A stretch of 48,940 nucleotides of DNA from a virus. Shown here one piece after another: positions 17,535 through 48,908 of the stretch (position 1 is the stretch's first letter; each line of letters starts with the position of its first letter). Location: IMG/VR virus record IMGVR_UViG_3300025632_000022, positions 1 through 48,940 of that record, one strand, 5' to 3'. The notes beneath the pieces were generated by a model. The model made no database searches, had not been told where the DNA came from, and saw only the letters and a program-made list of their open reading frames with translations. A program made the translations under genes and the position numbers.

Positions 17535-20500
17535 TTAATCCCAATTCATCAACTGAACCCAAGGGTTCAGATCTGGTGCACCAAATAGCATGTCCCAACC
17601 TAGGGCATAATCTATTCTATCCTGCCCGATAACAGAGAATAAGTTATCGTTGACGGGTGAGCCTAAATCACCAACAGTGTTGGCAGTAATCAGTGCTCTA
17701 ACTGGGTTATCCCTCATAATACCTAATGAGATCTTCGCAATTCGGATCTTAAAGGACAAGAACCAGGTTGCACCTAAACTCTCTAAATAGTTACGAGCAC
17801 GGCCAGATGGTGCTGAGAAATTTACAAACTCTTCATTCATCTTGGTTAAAGCATCTTCAGCACCCACACCTTGAGATAGTAGGTGATCATAGTAGATTGA
17901 TTTAGCAATGAAATCACCATACTGAACTGCACGATTTGCAATCTTGTAGATGGTTGTTTCCTTAGACAACACACCATTTTTGATTACAGACTTCGCAAGG
18001 TTAGAAGGTAACTTCTCAATCAAACCATCAACCAATTGAACAATGTTCCCTGAAGTGATGTCTACATCAAGCTCTGTAATGCCCTCAGATATGTTCTTAT
18101 AGGCTCCAGCGTCAACTACAGGGGCAATGCTCATACGAGCGTTCTCTGCCTCTACAGCCTTAATCTGACGCTTCAGACGAGATATCTCACCAGATGCTGA
18201 TGCACGTTTAAGATCTACATCCAAAGCAATCAGCTTAGTGCGGTTCAAATTGTACTTTTCAATCTCAACATACTTGTTACGATACCCACGCATTGTTGTC
18301 TTCATTGGTACTCCACGAGTGTTCAACTGAAAGACATTAGCCTGTGTATTCATGTACGGTACGATCAGAGAGCGAACAATGATTGCATCTTTAACATACG
18401 ATATAGTATCTTGAGTTACTTTCTCAGTGTTGACCAAGTATCTACGACCATCTTTACCCATTGTCAGTTCTGCTACAAATTTCACAGCAGTCTGTACTGT
18501 ATCTGGTAGACGTGTCTTGCCAGTCCATACATCAGTAATTGAAGGTTCACGGAAACCAAGAGATAAGTTGATCATGTCTTTACGTACAAAGAACCCTCCT
18601 TCATCACCATAAACCGAACGAATGTATTTCTTGGTTTCAGGAGGGATAGCAGCCCAACTGTCACGATAAATTGCATCAGTTAATTCTGGATCTGAGATAT
18701 CCACATATAGGTTAGCGTGTGATGGTTCACGTTCATCATATATACGTTTCGATTCATCAATCATTTTACGGTTATACTCTTGAGCAAACTTCTCTTCAAC
18801 TTGGCGGCCAGCCCATGAACCAATCATCTTAGATAGGTTCTGTTCAGGTTGTGCGTATGTCTCAAGGATGTCAGGGTTTATAACTCGTTCATAGTGTACA
18901 ACTGCACCATCATCACCGTAGCGAGGCAGTAATACCTCTTTAGGGTCTGTAACAGTCTGTGAAGCATTTAGTGCTCGTGTGATACTATCAACTCCGGCGC
19001 CGGAAATTACTCCAGAAGTGTGATTACCTGAAGATAAGCCAGAGGAGATTGATACACCTCGGAATGTGTCCTGAACAGTTTGAATTACCCCCTGTGAGTA
19101 TGCTCCTCCTTGTTTTGTAGAAGAGACATAATAACTACGATTAACGAAGCCTGCATCATCTTCAGCCTGGAAAGCTCCAAGTTTTACAAACCCTTTACGG
19201 ATCATTGTATCTTCATCGCTATCATTTGCGATCTGAACAATTACACCTTCTTTGGGGTGATCTGGGATGTAACCTTTGTAGCCGTTCAGACGAATAGCTT
19301 CAGTAACTTCTTTCAGATCCTCTTCTAAATTAAGAGCCTGCATATAAACCATCATTCCACGAACACCGGTTTTATTATTGGCGTATATGTCGTGGATCTC
19401 ACTACGCTCCTCACCAGTAAGCTCTTCAATTGCATAAAGTGTAACTAGTCGATCAATTACAGCTGTATCAGCTTCAGTAAAGTTACCTGTCAGTTTGTTG
19501 ATGGCATATGCATTGGTGATCAACTGATGACCAGCACCTTGGTCTGTCATAAATTTAGCTAACTGTAGGGACTTATCTTTAATATCCCCAGCAATACTAG
19601 CAGAATTCCCGACATCAATTAGTGCTTCAGCAGCAGCAATTGCACGACCACGAGCAGCATCTGAGGTTATCAAACGTATAGATTCACCTGGGTTAGCTTT
19701 GTCATACACTGAAGCGAAGTCATTTTTACCGAAAGCTTTATACATCAGCTTCCACTGAGCAGCAGTAGGAGCCGTGTTGAAGTCCTCTGTAAGAATAGCT
19801 GGAAGATCTATACGGAAAGCTTGGCGAACCTGTGATACATCCTTATTTACACCATCCAACAACTTGAGACTTGCTTGATTTATCTCAGTAGAACCTACCA
19901 GTTCATTTACAAATTCTTGTATTGGAACCAAGCTATCTAAGCTTATACCAGCATGTACCATATTCTTAGTAGTCTCAGCTGCAATATCACCACGTTTAGC
20001 GTCTAAGAAGCTTGTAGCAAATGCTACAGCACCTGTCAGACGTTTAGTCAATACTGTAGAATTCTCATCACGAGTTTTACGTGCATGGAATTCATCTGTG
20101 ATCTCTGCAGCTTTCTTCAGTAGGCCAGAGGTTGCTTTATCAGCAAGATCTACAGATCCCATCAGAGGACGAAGGATTGAGAACTCTTTATTACCTTCCT
20201 CAATCAATAAGTTCTTAGACAATACGTTCAACAACCCAACAGCACTATCACTGTGGATGTCAATTGTACCTACCGCTTTACGCATCAATACTGCAGTTGT
20301 TTGTGTGACAAATTTACTTAATGTAGAGGCATCATTACCAGGAGGACGTGGAAGCTTATCCAAGGCAGCCCGGAAACCTTTAGATGACTGAGATAGAGCA
20401 AAGAATACTGCGATTGCGTCGCTCATACCCTCATCATTCTCGGTATCACCCATAAGAGACATGACAGTTGAAAACCGTTCTTGACCAATACGACCTGAAC

Positions 20501-23500
20501 CAAACATCTCAGGTTTAAGATTATCTGTTACGTATGAGAACAAGTTGTTTAAGGCTACACTTGTCTGTGGATCTAAACGGGTTTCCATTGCAATGACCAT
20601 GTGGATGGCACGGAATGTTTGTTGCTCATACTCATTAGGAGAAAACCCACCCATTGTAAGATCACGTACAGCCAAAGCAGCTGCATTTTTATAACGATCA
20701 AGTTGGTCAATACGTTCTTCACGGTTATCACCAAAATCAAGAGCAGCTAGGCGCTCTTTAATTAGATCAATCCAGAAGTTTGAGTAATCATGTGCTTCAG
20801 GGGTAAGCTCTCCGTTGTCGTTTGTGTTATCGTTGCTCCCGCCTGTGCCTGCTTCGATCTCAATCTCTACAGTATCTGTAGTAGGAGTTTCAACAACCGG
20901 AACTGTAATTTCTGCCTCTTGTGTAACCGCAATAGTAGATGGAGTTGGTTCAGCCTTTATAGCCTTATCCAGCAACTTAACGTTGGCAGCAACATTCGAA
21001 TAGATGTCTTGCTTCAGGTTACCACCCATAATGCGTGCCATTAAAGCTTTAACCTTGCGAGATAGTTTAGCTAGGACACTGGTACGAGTTGTTTTCAATA
21101 CCGCTACCAATTTCTCATTTGTCAGCGACCATAACAAGAAAGCATTCATTTGTTCTGTGGGAGTATTTAATCCTTTTATGTCATCCTTAGCTAAAACAGC
21201 AGTCTGTGCAATTTCTACACCATCGTTAGTAAAATCTAAACCAAGGAACTCATTCTTTAGGGCTTCTAAACGAGCAACATTTGGGTTGTGTTCACCTGCA
21301 TAGTGAGCATCTATATGTTCTGTAGTTGAGTCCTGGATGATTTCCTCAAGAGGGGAAGCCTCTTTAGGTAAAGCCCCTGCATCTAAATTGTCTTGGATCA
21401 ATTCATTAATGGCATCTCTGTCCATCTCAGTATTATCACCACGAGATATTGATGTACCAGAACCACCCATATGATCTACAGACAGTGGGATCTGTTTAAA
21501 TACATCCTTACGGGCTTTATTCTTACGTTGGAAACCTTGTAATTGTTGGAGTAACTCCCGTGAATTCTTAGAAGTCAATGTGTTGTCAGGGTTCTTGTTC
21601 GCTTTAATACTTGCGTCACTGTAAGCTTTAGTTAGGAGCTTTTTGTTAGTTCCAGCATCAGCATGACGAAGGAAACTCTCAAAATCCTCAACGATACTTA
21701 TTAGAATATCGGAATCCCAATTCTTCAATACAGCAGTATTAATACGATCAGAATAATTCTGAACATCTGAAATACGCATATCAATCCCATCGAACACAGA
21801 CAGTGTATTTTGTGGGGAATCGTCTGCACTATAGATCTCATTCATCATCATAGCATCACCACGACCAATAGAGATATATGGGATAATTTTAACCTTAGAC
21901 TCTGCAGGACGTTGTAGTGAAGGTGATTGACGTAGTTTACCATCTAAGGTGGCAGATAATGCAGCAGAGTTATCACCAATCTGTGAAGACTCAAATCCAC
22001 CTACAGCAAGGGTTTGTGATCCGTTACTAAATAATGGAGCATACACCCGCAATTCCTCTACCAGAGCATCATAATCAGATTGTGCTAGATCCTGGCGAGA
22101 TTTAATCTTACCCTCTGCGATCTGGTCTTTAACCATTTTATCTAAACGTTCAGTAAACAAGGTGTCTAAGAAATTAGCCTGGACAGATGTCATAAATACC
22201 AAATGATTATTGACATTTGTAATCTCAGAGCCAATAACTTTCTTAGCAGAATTACTTAGAAGAGAGCCAGTTTCCTCAATTACAAGTTCCTCAAATTGTT
22301 TGATAGCTGGTTTACTAAATGTGAACGTAGCAGGATCCAAAGGATCTGGTAGCTTTTGACCAAACAACAGTTCGATGTCTTCATTTACACCTGGATACCC
22401 TAGGAACTCAGCGAATGTAACACCATCTTGGCTTGATGCCAGTTTGCTGTATATTTCAATCATCATATCATGTGCCAAGCCTTTACCTACACCAGCAATA
22501 CCAGAGCCGTAGACAGTCTTTGTCATAGGGTTCTTTGAACTATTACGTGTAAGGTGGAACTTGTTCTTACGGAAGTCTTCTTCACTGTCAGATGCAAAGT
22601 CACCAAACTTAACAGTCAGTCGAGCCAGAGCATAAAGCTTTTCTTTGTTTTTTGTGTCTGAAGACGCAATCTTAGCAAACATAGTTTGTTCTGCATCCAG
22701 AGATGTCACGTCGTATAGATCCTTGAAACCAAGCTTACTAAACAGATGATTTAATGTGCGGTTTTTAACACCAAGGAAGAAGCCAACACGTTGGAAGTTA
22801 TCGTGATCTAAGGTTGTAAGTAGACCTTGACCAAAGTTAGCCATCAGATTAGCAGGCCCATCAGTTTTACCATCAAGCTCGAAAGACAATGATGTTTCAA
22901 ACTTGGTTATATCTGGTGCTACCTTCAGAGAGGCTACAGCAAGGATTGCAGACATTTGCTGCATATCCATACCATTGCCCATTTCTTTGGCCATAACATC
23001 TAGGTTCATGGTTTCACCATTAAGGTGTTTCACCGCTTCAGAAATACTGTCACCATATTTAACTGCAAAGTCACCTTGAATACTCGCAAGAATACTATCA
23101 TGGTTCTCATTTTCTACTTTATTTATGCCTGAAGCTTGAGCCACGGTTAACCAGAAAGCACGTTGGTGCTCAGTGGATGTCATATCCAACACATCATTTG
23201 TAGGGGTAACTAGAGCACGTAAGATCTTATTTGACTGAGGATTGATACCTTTTTGTTGATGACGACCAACCTTAGTAACACCAACACCGTAGTAGACGGA
23301 TCCACCTTCAGACATACCAGCGATTACTGCTTGAGCATTATCCCAGTTATTTCGAATGGATGTATTAAGGCCATCTACAGAAAGACGTAGGGTATCATTA
23401 CCAGCAAAGCTATCCATATCAATATAGCCAAGACGTTCTTTAATGAAGTCATACCCCAACGCTGTAGTAAACGATGACATGTTTGTAGCAAGCTTGTGTG

Positions 23501-26500
23501 GTGTATCTTGCATGTTTTTCAGCGCAGTCTGTTCTTGTTGTCCTAGAGGTACATCAGAACGTTCCTGAGTAGTATCAACATGTTCAATTTTCTTATCAAA
23601 TGATGGCATAATATCTAATTCAGGAGCGATTGCTTTTTGTATAGCCCCTCTACCAATAATTCCAATATCATCTTGGTATTTTTTCAGACCATCAATGTTA
23701 ATTGTCACTGCTGTGTTTTTACCATCACCTAAATTGATTTTAATTGTAGATAATCGAATAAGATCTGTCTCTTCAGATGCAACCAACAAGATCTCTTTAA
23801 TTAGACCCTCAACAGCACGTACATCTACCATAGAGTTGGTTTTGTCTATTTTCATGTTCCAAGCCTTTATAACCATATTAGTCATTTGGGTAACTGCACG
23901 GTTAGGTGGAACACCTGTTGCAATATCACGATAGTTTTCTGGAGTAACATCATGAATTGACAAGCCAAGATTCTCCAAAGTCTCATCCATACGTGATGGA
24001 TCCCCGGGTGTAGTGGTTGTCATCCAATCCAATACAGTTGTGGCAGCTAAACCAAGAAGAGTAGGATCGTATAGACCAGTCTCTGTATTCACAAACATTA
24101 GTGCTTTCTTGTTACGGAATTCTACTGAATCCTTATCGGAAAGAATATGCTCATAGACAGTCTCCCCTCCCACTTTACCAAACGGGACAGTTGACAGTCG
24201 AGTTTGTACACCATCAACAATTGCACTTAGATGTTCTGTTATAAAATTATGATAAACAGTTTGTTCTGGATCTACTTGATTCAAGAGACTATCTGCATCT
24301 GTCCACGGAATATTTGTATCCAGAACCTTATGAGTAGCACTAAACCGGCTATCTAGTTTCGAGTAATCCCGTTTGTTTAGCGGTGTTTGTACGGTATCGT
24401 CTTGTCGTACAGGATCTTGTCGTTGGCTGGGTGCTTCACTTCCACCGGCTTTGGTGATGACTTGCTTGACATATGCTATTCCTTTCGGGAATTGTGCTGA
24501 TGCTTTATCCTCATCCAACAACATTGCTGCACCTAATTCGGCAAACAACTCAGAGAATAAGGTATCAGATTTTCTGAAACCAAGAGCGTAAGAGAAATAC
24601 TCCTCTGTTCGTTTATTAACCTTGGTTAGATCTTTAATTTCTTTGTATAGCTCACCCTTCAAAGGGTCAAAACCAAGTTGATCCATTGAGAGAGTACGAC
24701 CCGGTGTTTCCACAGCATTACCATCAATCAAGTGCATAAGTTCATGGAATAGAATGTGCTTACCACGTCCCAACTTACCTGCTTTAATATTTGCAATAAC
24801 TTCTGGTTTAAGAGAAATAACACCCTCACCCCAATAAGCATGGCCTATGTGGTCTGGGTCTTCGGTCACTAATTCAGCAAAACCTTTAACCACGTCAGGT
24901 AGACCCATCTGTTTAAGAACTGGAGACAAAACATCAGTTATTGTTTTAGTATCTTCAACATTCAAAGGTTTATGTTGCACATCTTTATTCCAACCATTGA
25001 TTGATTTGATACGACCATCTGGTGTTAAATCATTAAACTTAGCCTTAGTTTTAGGTTGAGTAGGTAAGGTATTTACTACTTCTGGGCTTGTCTCAGAATC
25101 GACCTCTGCCTCTGATTGCTGCGCAACAGATGCCTTGCTCTCTTCTTCGACAGCCGTTGTGTCTGCTATTTTTTGGGTTTCTTCTTTTTGTGAACTGACA
25201 TCAGAGATCTCTTGTTTTTTAACGATTAGAGTTGGAACTTCAATTTTCCCATTTGGAAATAAATCAGGGAATTGATCAACCAATAGATTGTGGACTTCAG
25301 CTGCAACAGTAGCATCTTTGAACACGTCTTGAGCCAAATTAACTGATCCTTCACGACCAGGGTGAAGTGTGATCGCTTTAGATCCTTTTGGGTGGCCTGC
25401 AGGTACAAGTTTTGTACCACCAACAATGGATTCAAATTTCATAGGTAGACCAGCAACACCGTTGCCTGCTTGAGCAGAACGGTTCAGAGCATCGACTTTA
25501 TTGGTAAGGTGGGTAGTGAATAAACCAAAGGAATGGGCAACATCTGATGCACGGATAAGAATACCCTCAGAACCTTTCTCAGTTGATGGGAATGTACCAA
25601 ACTCATCACGAGCACCTTTAGTTATATCAGATACAAAGTCGTTTACAGAACGTAATTTATTGCCCTTCACATCTTTGAACCCGCCTAATAAGATTGAGCG
25701 AGATACTTTGTTACCTGGATTTAAACCAGGTGTAATTGAAACGGTGCCATCTTCAGCAACCTCAACCGTACCACCTACATGTTTGTTGACAGCCTCTGAT
25801 ATCTTACCTGCAGTCTGTAGTAATGTTCGTGACTTCTTAGGGATTTTAGAAGCACCGCCAGATGTAAAGATCTTTTTAAGTAATTCAGGATGAACTGCAG
25901 CTGGATTGATTTCAGCCAGAGCCAAGGTATCAGCAATAACCTGCTCGTTAATTTGAATCTTGGATACATCTAATTTGTTCTGATCAATTTCACCTGCACG
26001 TTTAGTGATTGCACGTAGTTGAGTAGAGGCCAGAACTTTTTGAACTTCAGTACGAACATCAGCAGGAAGACCTTTAACTGAACGCTGTAATTCATTGATT
26101 TGTGTATTAGCAAACAATAGATCAGAGTCAGCCAATTTACGGATTTTTGTAGATTTGACGCCTGCCAAGATACCCTGGATATTTGATAAGGTTGTACCGT
26201 TAGGGGTAACACTTTCAGTGAAGCCAGGAGAAACTAAAATCTTTTCTGTTTTTTCCGCAATAATAGATACAGCTTCTGGGGTAGCTTTTTTATCAGCAAT
26301 GTAAGTATTAGCTAGAACCTGTGTTTGGTTTACCGCTTGGTTTACCACACCTACAATCTTCTCATTTGGACGTTCAATAACATCCTGAACTTTATCACCC
26401 ACAGCTTCAGCTACAGGAGCCAGTGCTTGTGCTACTGGTTTGACAACAGGTGCTGTGACTTTGGTTACAGCCTTACCAGTAGCTTTTGCACCAGTACCAG

Positions 26501-27767
26501 CCGCATTAAGTATGTTTGCTGTGGTTTCAGATTGTGCAGCTTTTACTGTACCTCTTGCAGCAGTTTTCAATACAGATCCTGCAGTAGAGGGGGTAGCCAA
26601 TGCGCCTGCAGTACCAATACCACCAATCAACCCCTCAACAGCAGCAGAACCAACCCCTTCAAGTAAACTTTGGTTTTTATCAGCATTACGCTGTAGGGCT
26701 ACATTTGAGGCAAAAGTACCACCTGCACCTTGAAGAGTCTCTTCAACTCCCTCGGCAGCAATACCAGTAATCTTTTGTCCAGCGCCTTTACCTTTAAAAA
26801 ATTTCAATGGATTTGCTTCAAGTTTACCAGCAACCTTACCAAAAGCGACAGCAGCAGGCAGGGTTAATGCTAAAGCTTCATTACCTCCTAATACAGCTGT
26901 GCGTTTACGAGCAGCGTCAGGAGTTAATCCTTGATCAATTAGATCACGATAGATCTGAGATCCCTCTAATAGATCTGCATGTGGGATCTGTAGAATAGTC
27001 ATGGCAGTATCACGATGCACAGATAAAGCTTCTGTCGTACCAATTGATAGGGCAGTAGCCAGATCTGAAGATTCTTTGGCAAGAGCAGCTGACTCTTTTC
27101 CGATGATACCAGCAGAACCTGTAGCATTACGTACTGCAATCTTGGAAGCCACACCAACTAACTTACTAGAGAAACCAATTGAACCGATACCAGAAGCAAT
27201 GATATCTAGTGCAGATGTAGGATTATCAGCTACACGACCACCAGCATCTAAAGCAGATCGACCAACAGATTTCAGGTTAGCTAGGAAGCTATTAGATCCT
27301 TCAGCTAAATCTTTATCCAGTTGGATTTTATTATCTTCTTCGTCCAATGAGGACTGTAAACCCACCAGTTGTTGTTGATCTTTATTTTCTTGAGATTGTA
27401 GGGCCAAAGTAGCAGCAGTTGCCTGTTGTGTATTCTGTTGAATACCTCTGGCTGCATTATTGAAGGCAGACCCATCTAAACCAACACCATCAGCAGCACT
27501 ACCTATAGCAAGAAATGGGAGGGATACAACATCACCCACAGCACCAAGGAATGCAGCCGTTGCACCAGAGGCAACGTCACCAGTTATTTGTAGAGCATCA
27601 CGATTAGAACTGTCAGCACGAACGAGGTCTTGACGCTCTTGGGCATCAATCAATTTCAGCTTGTTATCGCTACTTAGGACAATGGTCTCACCTGACGAAT
27701 TTCCAGTAAATTTACCAAGAGCTATACGCTCTGCTTCGTCGTCCGTTAGAATTGGTTCGTCAGCCAT
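17535..27767 (-). CDS. N4-like virion RNA polymerase
   Basis: 3410 residues, similar to the roughly 3500 of N4 gp50. It is packaged in the virion, injected with the DNA, and transcribes early genes from hairpin promoters. Seen: T-K-V-G-R1502 (TxxGR), motif A L-D1632-G-K-T-D-G, motif B R1741-N-S-S-K1745 ... Y1753-G, and motif C V-F-D1993-G-I-D. Spacing R-D-R-D is 130/109/252, near N4's 135/107/285. Flanks: an N-terminal part with Ala/Gly-rich helices (about 50-420), a zincin-like H1008-E-L-M-H1012 with L-F-A-E-L downstream, and a C-terminal region with F-V-N-F-S-A-P-S-G-R and R-D-N-P-V-R-A-L typical of N4-like homologues. The ribosome-binding site GAGGA lies in the arm of a large hairpin. Last gene of the late operon. 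Confidence 0.96.
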   Translation of the reverse strand: MADEPILTDDEAERIALGKFTGNSSGETIVLSSDNKLKLIDAQERQDLVRADSSNRDALQITGDVASGATAAFLGAVGDVVSLPFLAIGSAADGVGLDGSAFNNAARGIQQNTQQATAATLALQSQENKDQQQLVGLQSSLDEEDNKIQLDKDLAEGSNSFLANLKSVGRSALDAGGRVADNPTSALDIIASGIGSIGFSSKLVGVASKIAVRNATGSAGIIGKESAALAKESSDLATALSIGTTEALSVHRDTAMTILQIPHADLLEGSQIYRDLIDQGLTPDAARKRTAVLGGNEALALTLPAAVAFGKVAGKLEANPLKFFKGKGAGQKITGIAAEGVEETLQGAGGTFASNVALQRNADKNQSLLEGVGSAAVEGLIGGIGTAGALATPSTAGSVLKTAARGTVKAAQSETTANILNAAGTGAKATGKAVTKVTAPVVKPVAQALAPVAEAVGDKVQDVIERPNEKIVGVVNQAVNQTQVLANTYIADKKATPEAVSIIAEKTEKILVSPGFTESVTPNGTTLSNIQGILAGVKSTKIRKLADSDLLFANTQINELQRSVKGLPADVRTEVQKVLASTQLRAITKRAGEIDQNKLDVSKIQINEQVIADTLALAEINPAAVHPELLKKIFTSGGASKIPKKSRTLLQTAGKISEAVNKHVGGTVEVAEDGTVSITPGLNPGNKVSRSILLGGFKDVKGNKLRSVNDFVSDITKGARDEFGTFPSTEKGSEGILIRASDVAHSFGLFTTHLTNKVDALNRSAQAGNGVAGLPMKFESIVGGTKLVPAGHPKGSKAITLHPGREGSVNLAQDVFKDATVAAEVHNLLVDQFPDLFPNGKIEVPTLIVKKQEISDVSSQKEETQKIADTTAVEEESKASVAQQSEAEVDSETSPEVVNTLPTQPKTKAKFNDLTPDGRIKSINGWNKDVQHKPLNVEDTKTITDVLSPVLKQMGLPDVVKGFAELVTEDPDHIGHAYWGEGVISLKPEVIANIKAGKLGRGKHILFHELMHLIDGNAVETPGRTLSMDQLGFDPLKGELYKEIKDLTKVNKRTEEYFSYALGFRKSDTLFSELFAELGAAMLLDEDKASAQFPKGIAYVKQVITKAGGSEAPSQRQDPVRQDDTVQTPLNKRDYSKLDSRFSATHKVLDTNIPWTDADSLLNQVDPEQTVYHNFITEHLSAIVDGVQTRLSTVPFGKVGGETVYEHILSDKDSVEFRNKKALMFVNTETGLYDPTLLGLAATTVLDWMTTTTPGDPSRMDETLENLGLSIHDVTPENYRDIATGVPPNRAVTQMTNMVIKAWNMKIDKTNSMVDVRAVEGLIKEILLVASEETDLIRLSTIKINLGDGKNTAVTINIDGLKKYQDDIGIIGRGAIQKAIAPELDIMPSFDKKIEHVDTTQERSDVPLGQQEQTALKNMQDTPHKLATNMSSFTTALGYDFIKERLGYIDMDSFAGNDTLRLSVDGLNTSIRNNWDNAQAVIAGMSEGGSVYYGVGVTKVGRHQQKGINPQSNKILRALVTPTNDVLDMTSTEHQRAFWLTVAQASGINKVENENHDSILASIQGDFAVKYGDSISEAVKHLNGETMNLDVMAKEMGNGMDMQQMSAILAVASLKVAPDITKFETSLSFELDGKTDGPANLMANFGQGLLTTLDHDNFQRVGFFLGVKNRTLNHLFSKLGFKDLYDVTSLDAEQTMFAKIASSDTKNKEKLYALARLTVKFGDFASDSEEDFRKNKFHLTRNSSKNPMTKTVYGSGIAGVGKGLAHDMMIEIYSKLASSQDGVTFAEFLGYPGVNEDIELLFGQKLPDPLDPATFTFSKPAIKQFEELVIEETGSLLSNSAKKVIGSEITNVNNHLVFMTSVQANFLDTLFTERLDKMVKDQIAEGKIKSRQDLAQSDYDALVEELRVYAPLFSNGSQTLAVGGFESSQIGDNSAALSATLDGKLRQSPSLQRPAESKVKIIPYISIGRGDAMMMNEIYSADDSPQNTLSVFDGIDMRISDVQNYSDRINTAVLKNWDSDILISIVEDFESFLRHADAGTNKKLLTKAYSDASIKANKNPDNTLTSKNSRELLQQLQGFQRKNKARKDVFKQIPLSVDHMGGSGTSISRGDNTEMDRDAINELIQDNLDAGALPKEASPLEEIIQDSTTEHIDAHYAGEHNPNVARLEALKNEFLGLDFTNDGVEIAQTAVLAKDDIKGLNTPTEQMNAFLLWSLTNEKLVAVLKTTRTSVLAKLSRKVKALMARIMGGNLKQDIYSNVAANVKLLDKAIKAEPTPSTIAVTQEAEITVPVVETPTTDTVEIEIEAGTGGSNDNTNDNGELTPEAHDYSNFWIDLIKERLAALDFGDNREERIDQLDRYKNAAALAVRDLTMGGFSPNEYEQQTFRAIHMVIAMETRLDPQTSVALNNLFSYVTDNLKPEMFGSGRIGQERFSTVMSLMGDTENDEGMSDAIAVFFALSQSSKGFRAALDKLPRPPGNDASTLSKFVTQTTAVLMRKAVGTIDIHSDSAVGLLNVLSKNLLIEEGNKEFSILRPLMGSVDLADKATSGLLKKAAEITDEFHARKTRDENSTVLTKRLTGAVAFATSFLDAKRGDIAAETTKNMVHAGISLDSLVPIQEFVNELVGSTEINQASLKLLDGVNKDVSQVRQAFRIDLPAILTEDFNTAPTAAQWKLMYKAFGKNDFASVYDKANPGESIRLITSDAARGRAIAAAEALIDVGNSASIAGDIKDKSLQLAKFMTDQGAGHQLITNAYAINKLTGNFTEADTAVIDRLVTLYAIEELTGEERSEIHDIYANNKTGVRGMMVYMQALNLEEDLKEVTEAIRLNGYKGYIPDHPKEGVIVQIANDSDEDTMIRKGFVKLGAFQAEDDAGFVNRSYYVSSTKQGGAYSQGVIQTVQDTFRGVSISSGLSSGNHTSGVISGAGVDSITRALNASQTVTDPKEVLLPRYGDDGAVVHYERVINPDILETYAQPEQNLSKMIGSWAGRQVEEKFAQEYNRKMIDESKRIYDEREPSHANLYVDISDPELTDAIYRDSWAAIPPETKKYIRSVYGDEGGFFVRKDMINLSLGFREPSITDVWTGKTRLPDTVQTAVKFVAELTMGKDGRRYLVNTEKVTQDTISYVKDAIIVRSLIVPYMNTQANVFQLNTRGVPMKTTMRGYRNKYVEIEKYNLNRTKLIALDVDLKRASASGEISRLKRQIKAVEAENARMSIAPVVDAGAYKNISEGITELDVDITSGNIVQLVDGLIEKLPSNLAKSVIKNGVLSKETTIYKIANRAVQYGDFIAKSIYYDHLLSQGVGAEDALTKMNEEFVNFSAPSGRARNYLESLGATWFLSFKIRIAKISLGIMRDNPVRALITANTVGDLGSPVNDNLFSVIGQDRIDYALGWDMLFGAPDLNPWVQLMNWD

Positions 27768-45596: not shown

Positions 45597-46127
45597 GTTT
45601 CAAAAACTTGACAGCCCATCCTCAAATTCTGTAGATCTTCGTCAGCGGCTACAATCGCAGACACCCCATTTAGCTAGTCCGAGTTCTGTTTATAAACCAA
45701 GGGATCAGGATCCGAGGTTTAACACCACAACTTTCTCACTCACCTACATCCCGCGTTCGAAAGAGGTTTCTACAATCAAAGGGGATTGCTCACCTGCTCA
45801 TTCCACAGGAATAATACCGCTCGACAATCCAGGGAGTTAAAGTGAAGTAAGTATTATTTATACATTCTCAACACAGCAATTTTCTATTCATCCTTCATAA
45901 ACAGACTGGCTTCCCCCGAAAGCAAGCTTTCTCCTCCATGGTCTGTTTATTCACTCTTCATAGAAAATTCTACATCTCGACAATCGGTTGGAAAAAGTTA
46001 AAATTTTTATATTTAATTTGTATAATAACTAACGAGAGAGGTAGGGCGTTTGGTACACCAATCCCACATTTGGTAAGTGGCCCCCCCACCTTTGCATACA
46101 CATCTCAATCATACCCCCTATTTACAC

Positions 46128-46147
46128 AGGTGCCTTGCACCTATTGG
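46128..46147 (+). promoter_or_regulatory. N4-type early hairpin promoter 1
   Basis: AGGTGC-CTT-GCACCT (46128-46142), a 6-bp stem with 3-nt loop, then ATTGG. The template strand loop is AAG with a central purine, as N4 virion RNAP requires, and G46146 is 11 bases after the loop centre, the expected start site. It lies 34 bp before the first early gene. Two other copies share the CTT loop and TGG. Confidence 0.75.
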
Positions 46148-46179
46148 CATCAGCCATCAACCTCATCGGAGTACATCAC

Positions 46180-46470
46180 ATGAACGTAATCACATCAGCT
46201 AATCAAGCCATCTGCGGCATCTTCAACATGGTAACCACCTCAACTGCAGCAGTCTCTACATCCATTGAGGCAGGAGCTAACATGGTACATAACAGAGTCA
46301 AAGAATCAGACCTAACTGACCTTGAATTTGTACAACAACGCACAGCGGCAACCATGCAAAAGCTTCAAGATACCCTTGACGCAGACCCTAAACTGAAAGC
46401 TATGGCAGCCAAGGTAGCACTAGCTTGGGACAAACCTCTAGGCTGGAAGCCCGAAGACGACATCGCCTAA
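46180..46470 (+). CDS. early hypothetical protein, 96 aa
   Basis: 96 residues from ATG 46180, chosen because GGAG at 46168-46171 precedes it and it lies just after the predicted start of early promoter 1; a TTG further upstream overlaps the promoter hairpin. The first half is Ala/Thr/Ser-rich (T-S-T-A-A-V-S-T-S-I-E-A-G-A), the second charged and helical, ending W-K-P-E-D-D-I-A. Being the first gene read after injection, it could be a host takeover or anti-defence factor. No family recognised. Confidence 0.65.
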   Translation: MNVITSANQAICGIFNMVTTSTAAVSTSIEAGANMVHNRVKESDLTDLEFVQQRTAATMQKLQDTLDADPKLKAMAAKVALAWDKPLGWKPEDDIA

Positions 46471-46473
46471 ACT

Positions 46474-46502
46474 ACTACTGCCTACCCTAACCGGTAGGTA
46501 GT
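46474..46502 (+). repeat. hairpin between the first two early genes
   Basis: CCTACC (46481-46486) pairs with GGTAGG (46493-46498), and ACTA (46474-46477) can pair with TAGT (46499-46502) across a bulge. No T-tract follows, so it is more likely an mRNA processing or partial pause site than a terminator. Confidence 0.4.
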
Positions 46503-46560
46503 ACAGTGCCTTTGGATAGATCATAGATCATTCTACAACCCAACTCATGGAGTAACTCTG

Positions 46561-46725
46561 ATGACTGATAACAACCTACTACTAGCTGTGCTAGTTGCCA
46601 CAACCCTACTTACTGGTGTCTTGTACATAGACCACCTTGTAACCGCTAACACAGTAACCTCAACGCTCTCAGAGCAACCTGCTGGTACATGCATCAACAT
46701 CGAACTCTTCGAGGTATGTAACTGA
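46561..46725 (+). CDS. early small membrane protein, 54 aa
   Basis: 54 residues, ATG 46561 with GGAG at 46549-46552. One N-terminal hydrophobic helix (N-L-L-L-A-V-L-V-A-T-T-L-L-T-G-V-L-Y) and a short hydrophilic part with two cysteines (G-T-C, E-V-C-N). Either a secreted-type anchor or an inner membrane peptide. The stop overlaps the next ATG. Too short for homology by eye. Confidence 0.55.
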   Translation: MTDNNLLLAVLVATTLLTGVLYIDHLVTANTVTSTLSEQPAGTCINIELFEVCN

Positions 46726-46862
46726 TGATACAAAACCATCCATCTATACGCAGATTACTAAGAGCCATCCTAGATTTATGTCTAGCTATGGCCGAAAATA
46801 GAGTTATCAACTTGAAGATAAAACTTCAACTTCATGATATTAAAACACAGGAGCAAAGTTAA
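46725..46862 (+). CDS. early small basic protein, 45 aa
   Basis: 45 residues, basic and helical (R-R-L-L-R-A-I-L-D-L-C-L-A-M-A-E-N). It begins on the last base of the preceding stop (TGATG) and ends overlapping the next start (TAATG), so it is coupled on both sides. GGAG inside its 3' end serves the next gene. Unknown function. Confidence 0.5.
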   Translation: MIQNHPSIRRLLRAILDLCLAMAENRVINLKIKLQLHDIKTQEQS

Positions 46863-47158
46863 TGCCAACTCTCATGAAAGACATCAATGAAATGATCTAC
46901 TTGCGTGTTAACGATACGCAAGTAATACTAAATAATATAGACATTTATATGGTAATTGCTAACGCAGGTATAAAATCTGCGAAGGCTACCTCAGTCTATG
47001 CAACTTTCCAAATGCTACTGGATACTGGTGAGGAATTAAAGCCCCATGAGCATGTACGTGTCATACTCAACTGGAGTGTGATCGTAGGCTTCCACGACGC
47101 AACGAATGCTCCTCCTTTTGATGAGTATTTCATTAACATTCTAACCCAGAAAGGTTAA
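46862..47158 (+). CDS. early hypothetical protein, 98 aa
   Basis: 98 residues with CAGGAGCAAAG upstream. The central part (I-A-N-A-G-I-K-S-A-K-A-T-S-V-Y-A-T-F-Q-M-L) is helical and the C-terminal part contains V-R-V-I-L-N-W-S-V-I-V-G-F. No signal, membrane span or motif. Middle gene of the first early operon. Confidence 0.6.
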   Translation: MPTLMKDINEMIYLRVNDTQVILNNIDIYMVIANAGIKSAKATSVYATFQMLLDTGEELKPHEHVRVILNWSVIVGFHDATNAPPFDEYFINILTQKG

Positions 47159-47163
47159 CTCCA

Positions 47164-47364
47164 ATGGAACAACTATTTACAGGGATCTTCATCCTACTAT
47201 TCCAAGTGTTGTCATACAATATGGCAACTAAACGCAAACGCAACGTATTAGTGTGGGCATTCCTAACGCTCGCATTCGCACTAATTGCACTGCCAGTGTT
47301 GTTCTTCCTACCTAAATTAAAAGGTACACAGTATCCTGATGGTTACACAGTTAAAGGCGAATAA
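47164..47364 (+). CDS. early small membrane protein, 66 aa
   Basis: 66 residues with two hydrophobic helices (about 5-20 and 30-49) separated by a basic loop K-R-K-R-N, and a short polar tail. AAAGG at 47151-47155 is the ribosome-binding site. Encoded between two other small early genes, all likely acting at the host membrane soon after injection. Confidence 0.6.
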   Translation: MEQLFTGIFILLFQVLSYNMATKRKRNVLVWAFLTLAFALIALPVLFFLPKLKGTQYPDGYTVKGE

Positions 47365-47368
47365 AACT

Positions 47369-47527
47369 ATGGCACGATCTAACAGGCTACTAGGTTGTGA
47401 ATTGGCACAATATAACCTTATGTATGCAAAGCAATTAAGAGCCAATGAACGGCGGAAGACACGCCCTAAAGTACTATGTCTCTTTGTGGTTTGTCTAATA
47501 ATAGGCACGCTAATAATCACACTTTAG
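47369..47527 (+). CDS. early small membrane protein, 52 aa
   Basis: 52 residues from ATG 47369; an in-frame upstream ATG (47339) lies inside the previous gene. The basic N-terminal part (R-A-N-E-R-R-K-T-R-P-K) is followed by one C-terminal hydrophobic helix ending at the last residue, a tail-anchored layout. Followed directly by early promoter 2. Confidence 0.5.
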   Translation: MARSNRLLGCELAQYNLMYAKQLRANERRKTRPKVLCLFVVCLIIGTLIITL

Positions 47528-47539
47528 TAAAGTGAAGTG

Positions 47540-47559
47540 AGCTGCCTTGCAGCTTTTGG
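47540..47559 (+). promoter_or_regulatory. N4-type early hairpin promoter 2
   Basis: AGCTGC-CTT-GCAGCT (47540-47554), then TTTGG. Predicted start G47558, 11 bases after the loop centre. It lies between a small membrane protein gene and the 132-residue gene at 47614, 56 bp before that gene's ATG. Of the three, this one has the T-rich spacer closest to the classic N4 P2 promoter. Confidence 0.78.
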
Positions 47560-47613
47560 ACTGCACAATAATGTGAGGTCTATCAAAACCGTGAATCTTG
47601 AAAGGATCCACTA

Positions 47614-48012
47614 ATGTCTGTAATTTCTAAAACATCTCGCCCATCTACTCCTGCAGCTGGCGCACCTCGTACTCCAAAAGAGCATGACGGTATCTGGTTG
47701 AACTTGGGCCTAATCACTGACGTAACCGAAGAGAACCCTGACGGGAAATTTGTACGTCTTCCACGTGGCGTAGCGTTGAGCGATCTGGAAGCTCGTCCTG
47801 TATATCCAACCATGGATCCAGACTTCGCAACTGAACTTACGTTGATGAACCAAGTCATCACACAGTTGAAAGCTAAAGGCTTGAGCCTTGAAGAAGGTGA
47901 GTCTGTTTCTATTGGCCTTGAAGTACAACTGTACCGTCGCCAAGAAGAGCAGGAAGCTGTTGAGCCGTCTAAAGACGAAGCAGCGGCAGTTGCCAACGTA
48001 CTATTTGGCTAA
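47614..48012 (+). CDS. conserved phage early protein, 132 aa, function unknown
   Basis: 132 residues with a strong AAAGGA ribosome-binding site, its own hairpin promoter and its own terminator, so it is a monocistronic early unit likely expressed strongly. The pattern S-K-T-S-R-P, then D-G-I-W-L-N-L-G, F-V-R-L-P-R-G-V-A, L-Y-R-R-Q-E-E-Q is familiar from many phages' early regions without known function. Codons are more G/C-ended than its neighbours. The acidic tail (E-P-S-K-D-E-A-A-A) may be disordered. Confidence 0.7.
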   Translation: MSVISKTSRPSTPAAGAPRTPKEHDGIWLNLGLITDVTEENPDGKFVRLPRGVALSDLEARPVYPTMDPDFATELTLMNQVITQLKAKGLSLEEGESVSIGLEVQLYRRQEEQEAVEPSKDEAAAVANVLFG

Positions 48013-48027
48013 ACTTATCCTCCAACT

Positions 48028-48066
48028 AAGACCCAATGTCAGTTAACGCTGATGTTGGGTCTTTTT
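48028..48066 (+). terminator. rho-independent terminator
   Basis: AAGACCCAA (48028-48036) pairs with TTGGGTCTT (48055-48063), continuing inward through G-U pairs into TCAG/CTGA, and ends in TTTTT. It lies 15 bp after the 132-residue gene. Confidence 0.9.
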
Positions 48067-48111
48067 AGTTGTAATAGATTACTACAGATAGATTCTGTTT
48101 ACTCACAATTC

Positions 48112-48130
48112 GCTGCCTTGCAGCTGGTGG
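48112..48130 (+). promoter_or_regulatory. N4-type early hairpin promoter 3
   Basis: GCTGC-CTT-GCAGC (48112-48124) then TGGTGG, with predicted start G48129. A second short hairpin TGGC-TTC-GCCA follows at once. It heads the next early operon starting at 48240, 110 bp downstream. Confidence 0.72.
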
Positions 48131-48239: not shown

Positions 48240-48458
48240 ATGTTTTACCGGTTTAATTGCGGTACTTTCATCGAAGCAGACAACTTTGAGGAAGCAAAAG
48301 CGACGTTTATTGATCAAATAACGACAGAAGAGGAGAACCCAAAATCGTGGAATAAATGTACATGTTTGGGTTTTGATTACAGATCTGATTGTCCTGAACA
48401 TTGGGCCAATGAGGTTCCTTTCAATTCTGAAAATATACCATATTATGGAGAAAATTAA
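48240..48458 (+). CDS. early hypothetical protein, 72 aa
   Basis: 72 residues with AGAGGGAAA upstream. N-terminal F-I-E-A-D-N-F-E-E-A-K-A-T-F-I-D resembles a small alpha/beta module where a helix follows a strand; three cysteines are present (C-T-C, D-C-P). The stop overlaps the next ATG by one base. Unknown function. Confidence 0.6.
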   Translation: MFYRFNCGTFIEADNFEEAKATFIDQITTEEENPKSWNKCTCLGFDYRSDCPEHWANEVPFNSENIPYYGEN

Positions 48459-48682
48459 TGGACATTACTAATCAAATAACAACCAACCTGAAGATATGTC
48501 TTGGGTACGTTGAGAATGGTACATCAGCTTCTGTAAGTATTAGTCAAGATGATAGTACTAAAGAGTTTATTGTCACAGTAGGTAACAAACTATACTTTGG
48601 AACATCTCTTAATATAGCTCTGATGGAAGCAGCAACTGATAACCAACAAGAAGACATTAATAAGGTCAATTCTCATGGTTAG
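48458..48682 (+). CDS. early hypothetical protein, 74 aa
   Basis: 74 residues, start overlapping the previous stop (TAATG). Beta-rich centre (S-A-S-V-S-I-S-Q-D, F-I-V-T-V-G-N-K-L-Y) with a helical end. It overlaps the next gene by 8 bp. No family recognised. Confidence 0.55.
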   Translation: MDITNQITTNLKICLGYVENGTSASVSISQDDSTKEFIVTVGNKLYFGTSLNIALMEAATDNQQEDINKVNSHG

Positions 48683-48908
48683 TATTGGAACAAAAGCTCC
48701 TCGTAAAACAGAAGAAGAACGTCTGTCTAAGAAATATGCTAAACCTGGTTTAGTGTATACTGTCATGTACAGTATTGATGGGAAATCATGGAAAATTGCC
48801 CAGTCTGATATATCATGGTCAAAGGCGTATTGTCTGTTTCAACAGAGAAAAGCCAAAGCATTTAAAGTTAAAATATGGGGTGTAGTCCTCACAAATGTCA
48901 GGAAATAA
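48675..48908 (+). CDS. early hypothetical protein, 77 aa
   Basis: 77 basic residues beginning within the previous gene. A beta-hairpin-like segment Y-T-V-M-Y-S-I-D-G-K-S-W-K and a Q-Q-R-K-A-K-A-F-K-V-K-I-W end. Basic charge and small size would allow nucleic acid binding, but nothing specific is visible. Confidence 0.55.
   Translation: MVSIGTKAPRKTEEERLSKKYAKPGLVYTVMYSIDGKSWKIAQSDISWSKAYCLFQQRKAKAFKVKIWGVVLTNVRK

Follow-up and report, generated by a model that had tools for sequence, protein, structure and literature searches.

Three hairpins with a variant CTT loop as predicted early promoters for the virion RNA polymerase of an N4-like phage

Three short hairpins with a CTT loop, located in the early region of an N4-like phage, are very probably (roughly 0.92) its early promoters P1, P2, and P3 for the virion RNA polymerase (vRNAP). 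They represent a known kind of promoter with a new loop variant. The stretch of DNA analyzed, hereafter the window, is the complete IMG/VR record IMGVR_UViG_3300025632_000022 of 48,940 bases. This contig covers part of the genome of an N4-like phage (Schitoviridae), and the terminases closest to its own come mostly from marine roseophages and environmental contigs. The late genes are arranged leftward from 45265, and small plus-strand genes form the early region, which extends from about 46.1 kb rightward to the contig end, where it is cut off. A giant virion RNA polymerase with conserved T7-like catalytic residues is encoded. The features referred to below are as follows.

17535..27767, minus strand: virion RNA polymerase, 3410 aa (phrog_2206, 2011 bits; matching N4 vRNAP structures), the predicted hairpin reader
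46081..46087, plus strand: C7 tract about 50 bp 5' of P1, the only C/G run of at least 7 in the window
46128..46142, plus strand: predicted early promoter hairpin P1, AGGTGC-CTT-GCACCT, 6 bp, predicted +1 at 46146
46145..46147, plus strand: TGG of P1, predicted -1, +1, and +2
46180..46470, plus strand: first early gene (phrog_14155, EE36phi1 orf1 family)
47540..47554, plus strand: predicted early promoter hairpin P2, AGCTGC-CTT-GCAGCT, 6 bp, predicted +1 at 47558
47557..47559, plus strand: TGG of P2, predicted -1, +1, and +2
47614..48012, plus strand: gp2 homologue (phrog_4099, N4 gp2 family)
48028..48063, plus strand: intrinsic terminator-like stem-loop between gp2 and P3
48112..48124, plus strand: predicted early promoter hairpin P3, GCTGC-CTT-GCAGC, 5 bp, predicted +1 at 48129
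48128..48130, plus strand: TGG of P3, predicted -1, +1, and +2
48240-48458, 48458-48682, and 48675-48908, plus strand: small ORFs 3' of P3, after which the contig stops

A preliminary description of this DNA had reported three CTT-loop hairpins with stems of 5 to 6 bp, shared bases flanking the loop, and TGG at a fixed distance, and had read them as early promoters of the virion RNAP. The coordinates and a pattern scan bear out the structural part: the core TGC-CTT-GCA is common to P1, P2, and P3, all three are on the plus strand, and TGG stands in identical register, with 11 nt from the loop centre to its first G. The promoter reading is supported by the polymerase gene, the N4 geometry, and the gene context, transcription itself being extrapolated from N4. 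N4 provides the textbook DNA hairpin promoter, and the detailed rules rest on N4 as a single phage. The same hairpin scan applied to the N4 genome recovered N4 P1 to P3, with centres at 96, 565, and 4554. When the loop centre is set at -11, T falls at -1 and GG at +1/+2 for each hairpin of the window, just as for N4 P1 to P3, and the hairpins of both phages further share a stem of 5 to 7 bp and a 3-nt loop. On the template strand, N4 requires a -13G:-9C closing pair, -12A, a purine at -11, -10G, -8G, and +1C (PMC4496689), and P1 to P3 of the window possess -13G:-9C, -11A, -8G, and +1C.

Stem position -16/-6 is G-C in P1 and C-G in P2 and P3, a two-sided change that keeps the stem paired. Three transcription units are each preceded by one of these near-perfect 15-bp palindromes, as would be expected of operators through which a dimeric regulator controls the early genes, in which case they would not be hairpin promoters. 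This explanation is improbable, because TGG is present on one side only and in a fixed register equal to that of the mapped N4 promoters, because both bases of the outer stem pair are exchanged, and because the hairpins of relatives differ in sequence but share the geometry and are found at the same genes.

The genes that follow P1 and P2 belong to the same families as in relatives: P1 precedes the EE36phi1 orf1-family gene at 46180-46470, and P2 precedes the gp2-family gene at 47614-48012, at a distance of 56 nt and in the same place as P2 of N4 and of many relatives. The N4 gp2 protein serves as cofactor to the middle RNA polymerase (PMC4496689). P3 follows the terminator-like stem-loop at 48028-48063. 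In most sequenced Schitoviridae, the left genome end is followed after about 30 nt by a C7-C9 tract, 5' of P1. The tract at 46081-46087 matches it, with P1 following by about 50 bp as in relatives, so that the left end would be near 46050 and P1 about 85 nt from that end, much as in N4, which likewise has three promoters, with P1 by the left end and P2 before gp2. Possible roles of this tract are to mark the terminus or to assist packaging or opening; several roseophages carry two copies of it about 32 nt apart.

The hairpins are intergenic and 5' of start codons, a location that would also suit RNA stem-loops involved in processing or stability of the early messages, with the real promoters further upstream. 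This is still less probable than operators, given that the N4 equivalents sit upstream of the RNA start (PMC4496689) and that sigma-70-like sites in the early region are at chance level (10 versus 10.1 expected).

The consensus search proposed in the preliminary description was run on the 48.9-kb partial genome, where TGCCTTGCA-N5-TGG has exactly three matches, all in the early region, and no extra match when one mismatch is allowed. Shuffled controls with up to one mismatch gave a mean of 0.23 matches, and none of 100 shuffles reached three. General hairpins (stem of at least 5 bp, 3-nt loop, pyrimidine centre, GG in register) were not enriched in the contig, with 4 found versus 2.6 +/- 1.6 expected, so that the signal consists of the identical core, loop, and register and not of the presence of hairpins. 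Although chance readily produces 3-nt-loop hairpins with GG in register, the fortuitous repetition of a short palindrome has a negligible probability, because an exact 12-base motif is present three times on one strand within 2 kb and nowhere else in the contig, a number that the shuffles never gave.

The fit to N4 claimed in the preliminary description stands for the three rules that it named, the 3-nt loop, the purine at template -11, and the start 11 nt further on. It overlooked template -10G and -12A, which P1 to P3 lack and which in N4 are needed for both extrusion and binding (PMC4496689). The template loop is 5'-GAA-3' or 5'-GGA-3' in N4, whereas it is 5'-AAG-3' in all three hairpins of the window. 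With A at -10 and G at -12, the GNA loop and the sheared 5'G:A3' loop pair that define the N4 subtype are absent. Nearest-neighbour parameters assign the same energy to AAG and GAA loops, and folding energies thus do not bear on extrusion.

By analogy with N4, P1, P2, and P3 would each extrude a short hairpin once the phage DNA has entered the cell and is negatively supercoiled, and the co-injected virion RNA polymerase would bind the hairpin of the template strand. RNA synthesis is predicted to start at the G located 11 nt past the loop centre, at 46146, 47558, and 48129. The resulting transcripts would cover the first early gene, gp2 as the cofactor for middle transcription, and a third unit that probably extends to the middle RNA polymerase past the contig end. 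The part of the polymerase that recognizes the loop would presumably be adapted to AAG.

To place the loop among relatives, the early regions of 27 phages were surveyed, including that of the window; several of these phages are related to one another. To count as a site, a hairpin needed a C:G closing pair, G/C at the second pair, a 3- or 4-nt loop, and TGG in register, at no more than 160 nt from gp2. With this motif, which was defined after the data had been seen, a gp2-proximal site was detected in 19 of the 27 phages versus 5.4% of control stretches. In 17 of these 19 phages the non-template loop has the form T..C, corresponding to template GNA or GNNA; the two that deviate are the window, with CTT, and Dinoroseobacter phage vBDshPR2C, with GTT. 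Among the eight phages that lack a site, V13 and SP-058 fail at the second stem pair, CB2047-B, OLIVR3, and Meara have no TGG in register, and JWAlpha, Axy22, and Pokken have no candidate at this position. The early sites of vBDshPR2C, like those of DFL12phi1, resemble the hairpins of the window in their non-GNA loop (template AAC, with A at -10) and in the register of TGG, but differ in the loop sequence itself and in a 2-bp inner stem, beyond which the template strand has a tandem G-A mismatch.

Among phages with an early region, the nearest by polymerase are the IMG/VR contigs G001/L032, G008/L105, and G002/L056, which share the inner stem GC..GC, the register, and the place before gp2 with the window. 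They differ in their loop, which is TTC in all three (template GAA), as in N4 P1, and their vRNAP cores are 47%, 44%, and 42% identical to that of the window, respectively. CTT was absent in the near relatives with a sequenced early region, as well as from 11 loci in a further scan of viral contigs that made use of a gp2 alignment. The near-identical relatives L028-L031 stop before P1, which leaves CTT documented in a single genome. The vRNAP tree puts the window and a relative with a 92% identical vRNAP (IMGVR_UViG_3300025860_000072) together on a long branch, next to G001 and G008. As the nearest polymerase relatives use TTC and the branch of the window is long, CTT looks like a derived loop state of one genome, judging from sequence comparison. 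G001 is the nearest relative beyond the 92% one, and its terminase is 76% identical to that of the window, compared with only 47% for the vRNAP core.

Protein searches of the viral contigs with the gp2 homologue alone or with the first early protein returned no close relative. Scans of the viral contigs with two versions of the stem yielded 24 and 14 stretches, and all but one of the first 24 carried a single copy of TGCCTTGCA-N5-TGG. Protein comparison identified one clear Schitovirus fragment (L025) among all 38 stretches, in which the match was antisense within a coding frame; the stretches were treated as chance.

On the side of the polymerase, the enzyme of the window retains R904, the residue that makes contact with -8G in N4. 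Among the loop-contact residues (K114, R119, W129, and D901), D901 is replaced by G, R119 aligns with H, and W129 with F, in a region of weak alignment, and these positions also vary in relatives with GNA loops. Co-evolution of the polymerase with the AAG loop is plausible from these sequences. Because template AAG replaces the usual GNA or GNNA, the 5'G:A3' loop pair of N4 cannot form in the same way. We would give even odds to the idea that loop codes have diverged, with most lineages using GNA or GNNA and this one AAG in all its early promoters (AAC in vBDshPR2C), through a matching change in the loop-recognition part of the polymerase. If this is true, promoter specificity would have been re-set in one lineage, with a loop that is competent for extrusion without the sheared pair of N4. 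The three promoters break two N4 rules together while the remaining architecture is intact. They thus offer a natural test of the role of the loop in extrusion or recognition, and of the joint change of a single-subunit RNA polymerase and its promoters.

Published work has predicted hairpin promoters for LUZ7, LIT1, and PEV2 (PMC3715699), for Pectobacterium phages (PMC6027278), and for KP8, in which every loop is TCC (PMC6950046). A description of a non-GNA loop was not found in the literature as far as the papers were searchable. For the roseophages RPP1 and RLP1, a published search did not find a promoter consensus (PMC4193335), and the present survey gives candidate promoters for both. These belong to promoter-like hairpins with 4-nt loops (TAAC, TTAC, or TTCC; template GNNA), which precede gp2 and further early genes and keep the same register. 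Their predicted transcription start sites are at 382 and 1075 in RPP1 (L069) and RLP1 (L129), at 66 and 1093 in S6 (L076), and at 91 and 531 in Ea9-2 (L074), and such sites are also present in L079 and L136. In another promoter subclass, the template strand has a tandem 5'-GA/3'-AG mismatch between a 2-bp stem and further pairing, as in GTCGC-TTC-GCTCC. It was observed in V13 (L067), vBDshPR2C (L066), RD-1410W1-01 (L139), phiCB2047-B (L140), OLIVR3 (L141), and L143, and only in the template strand could the tandem GA mismatches give rise to sheared pairs. Finally, Salmonella phage FSL SP-058 (L134) has five TTC-loop sites in register, compared with three in N4, with predicted transcription start sites at 45, 674, 2904, 2956, and 5810.
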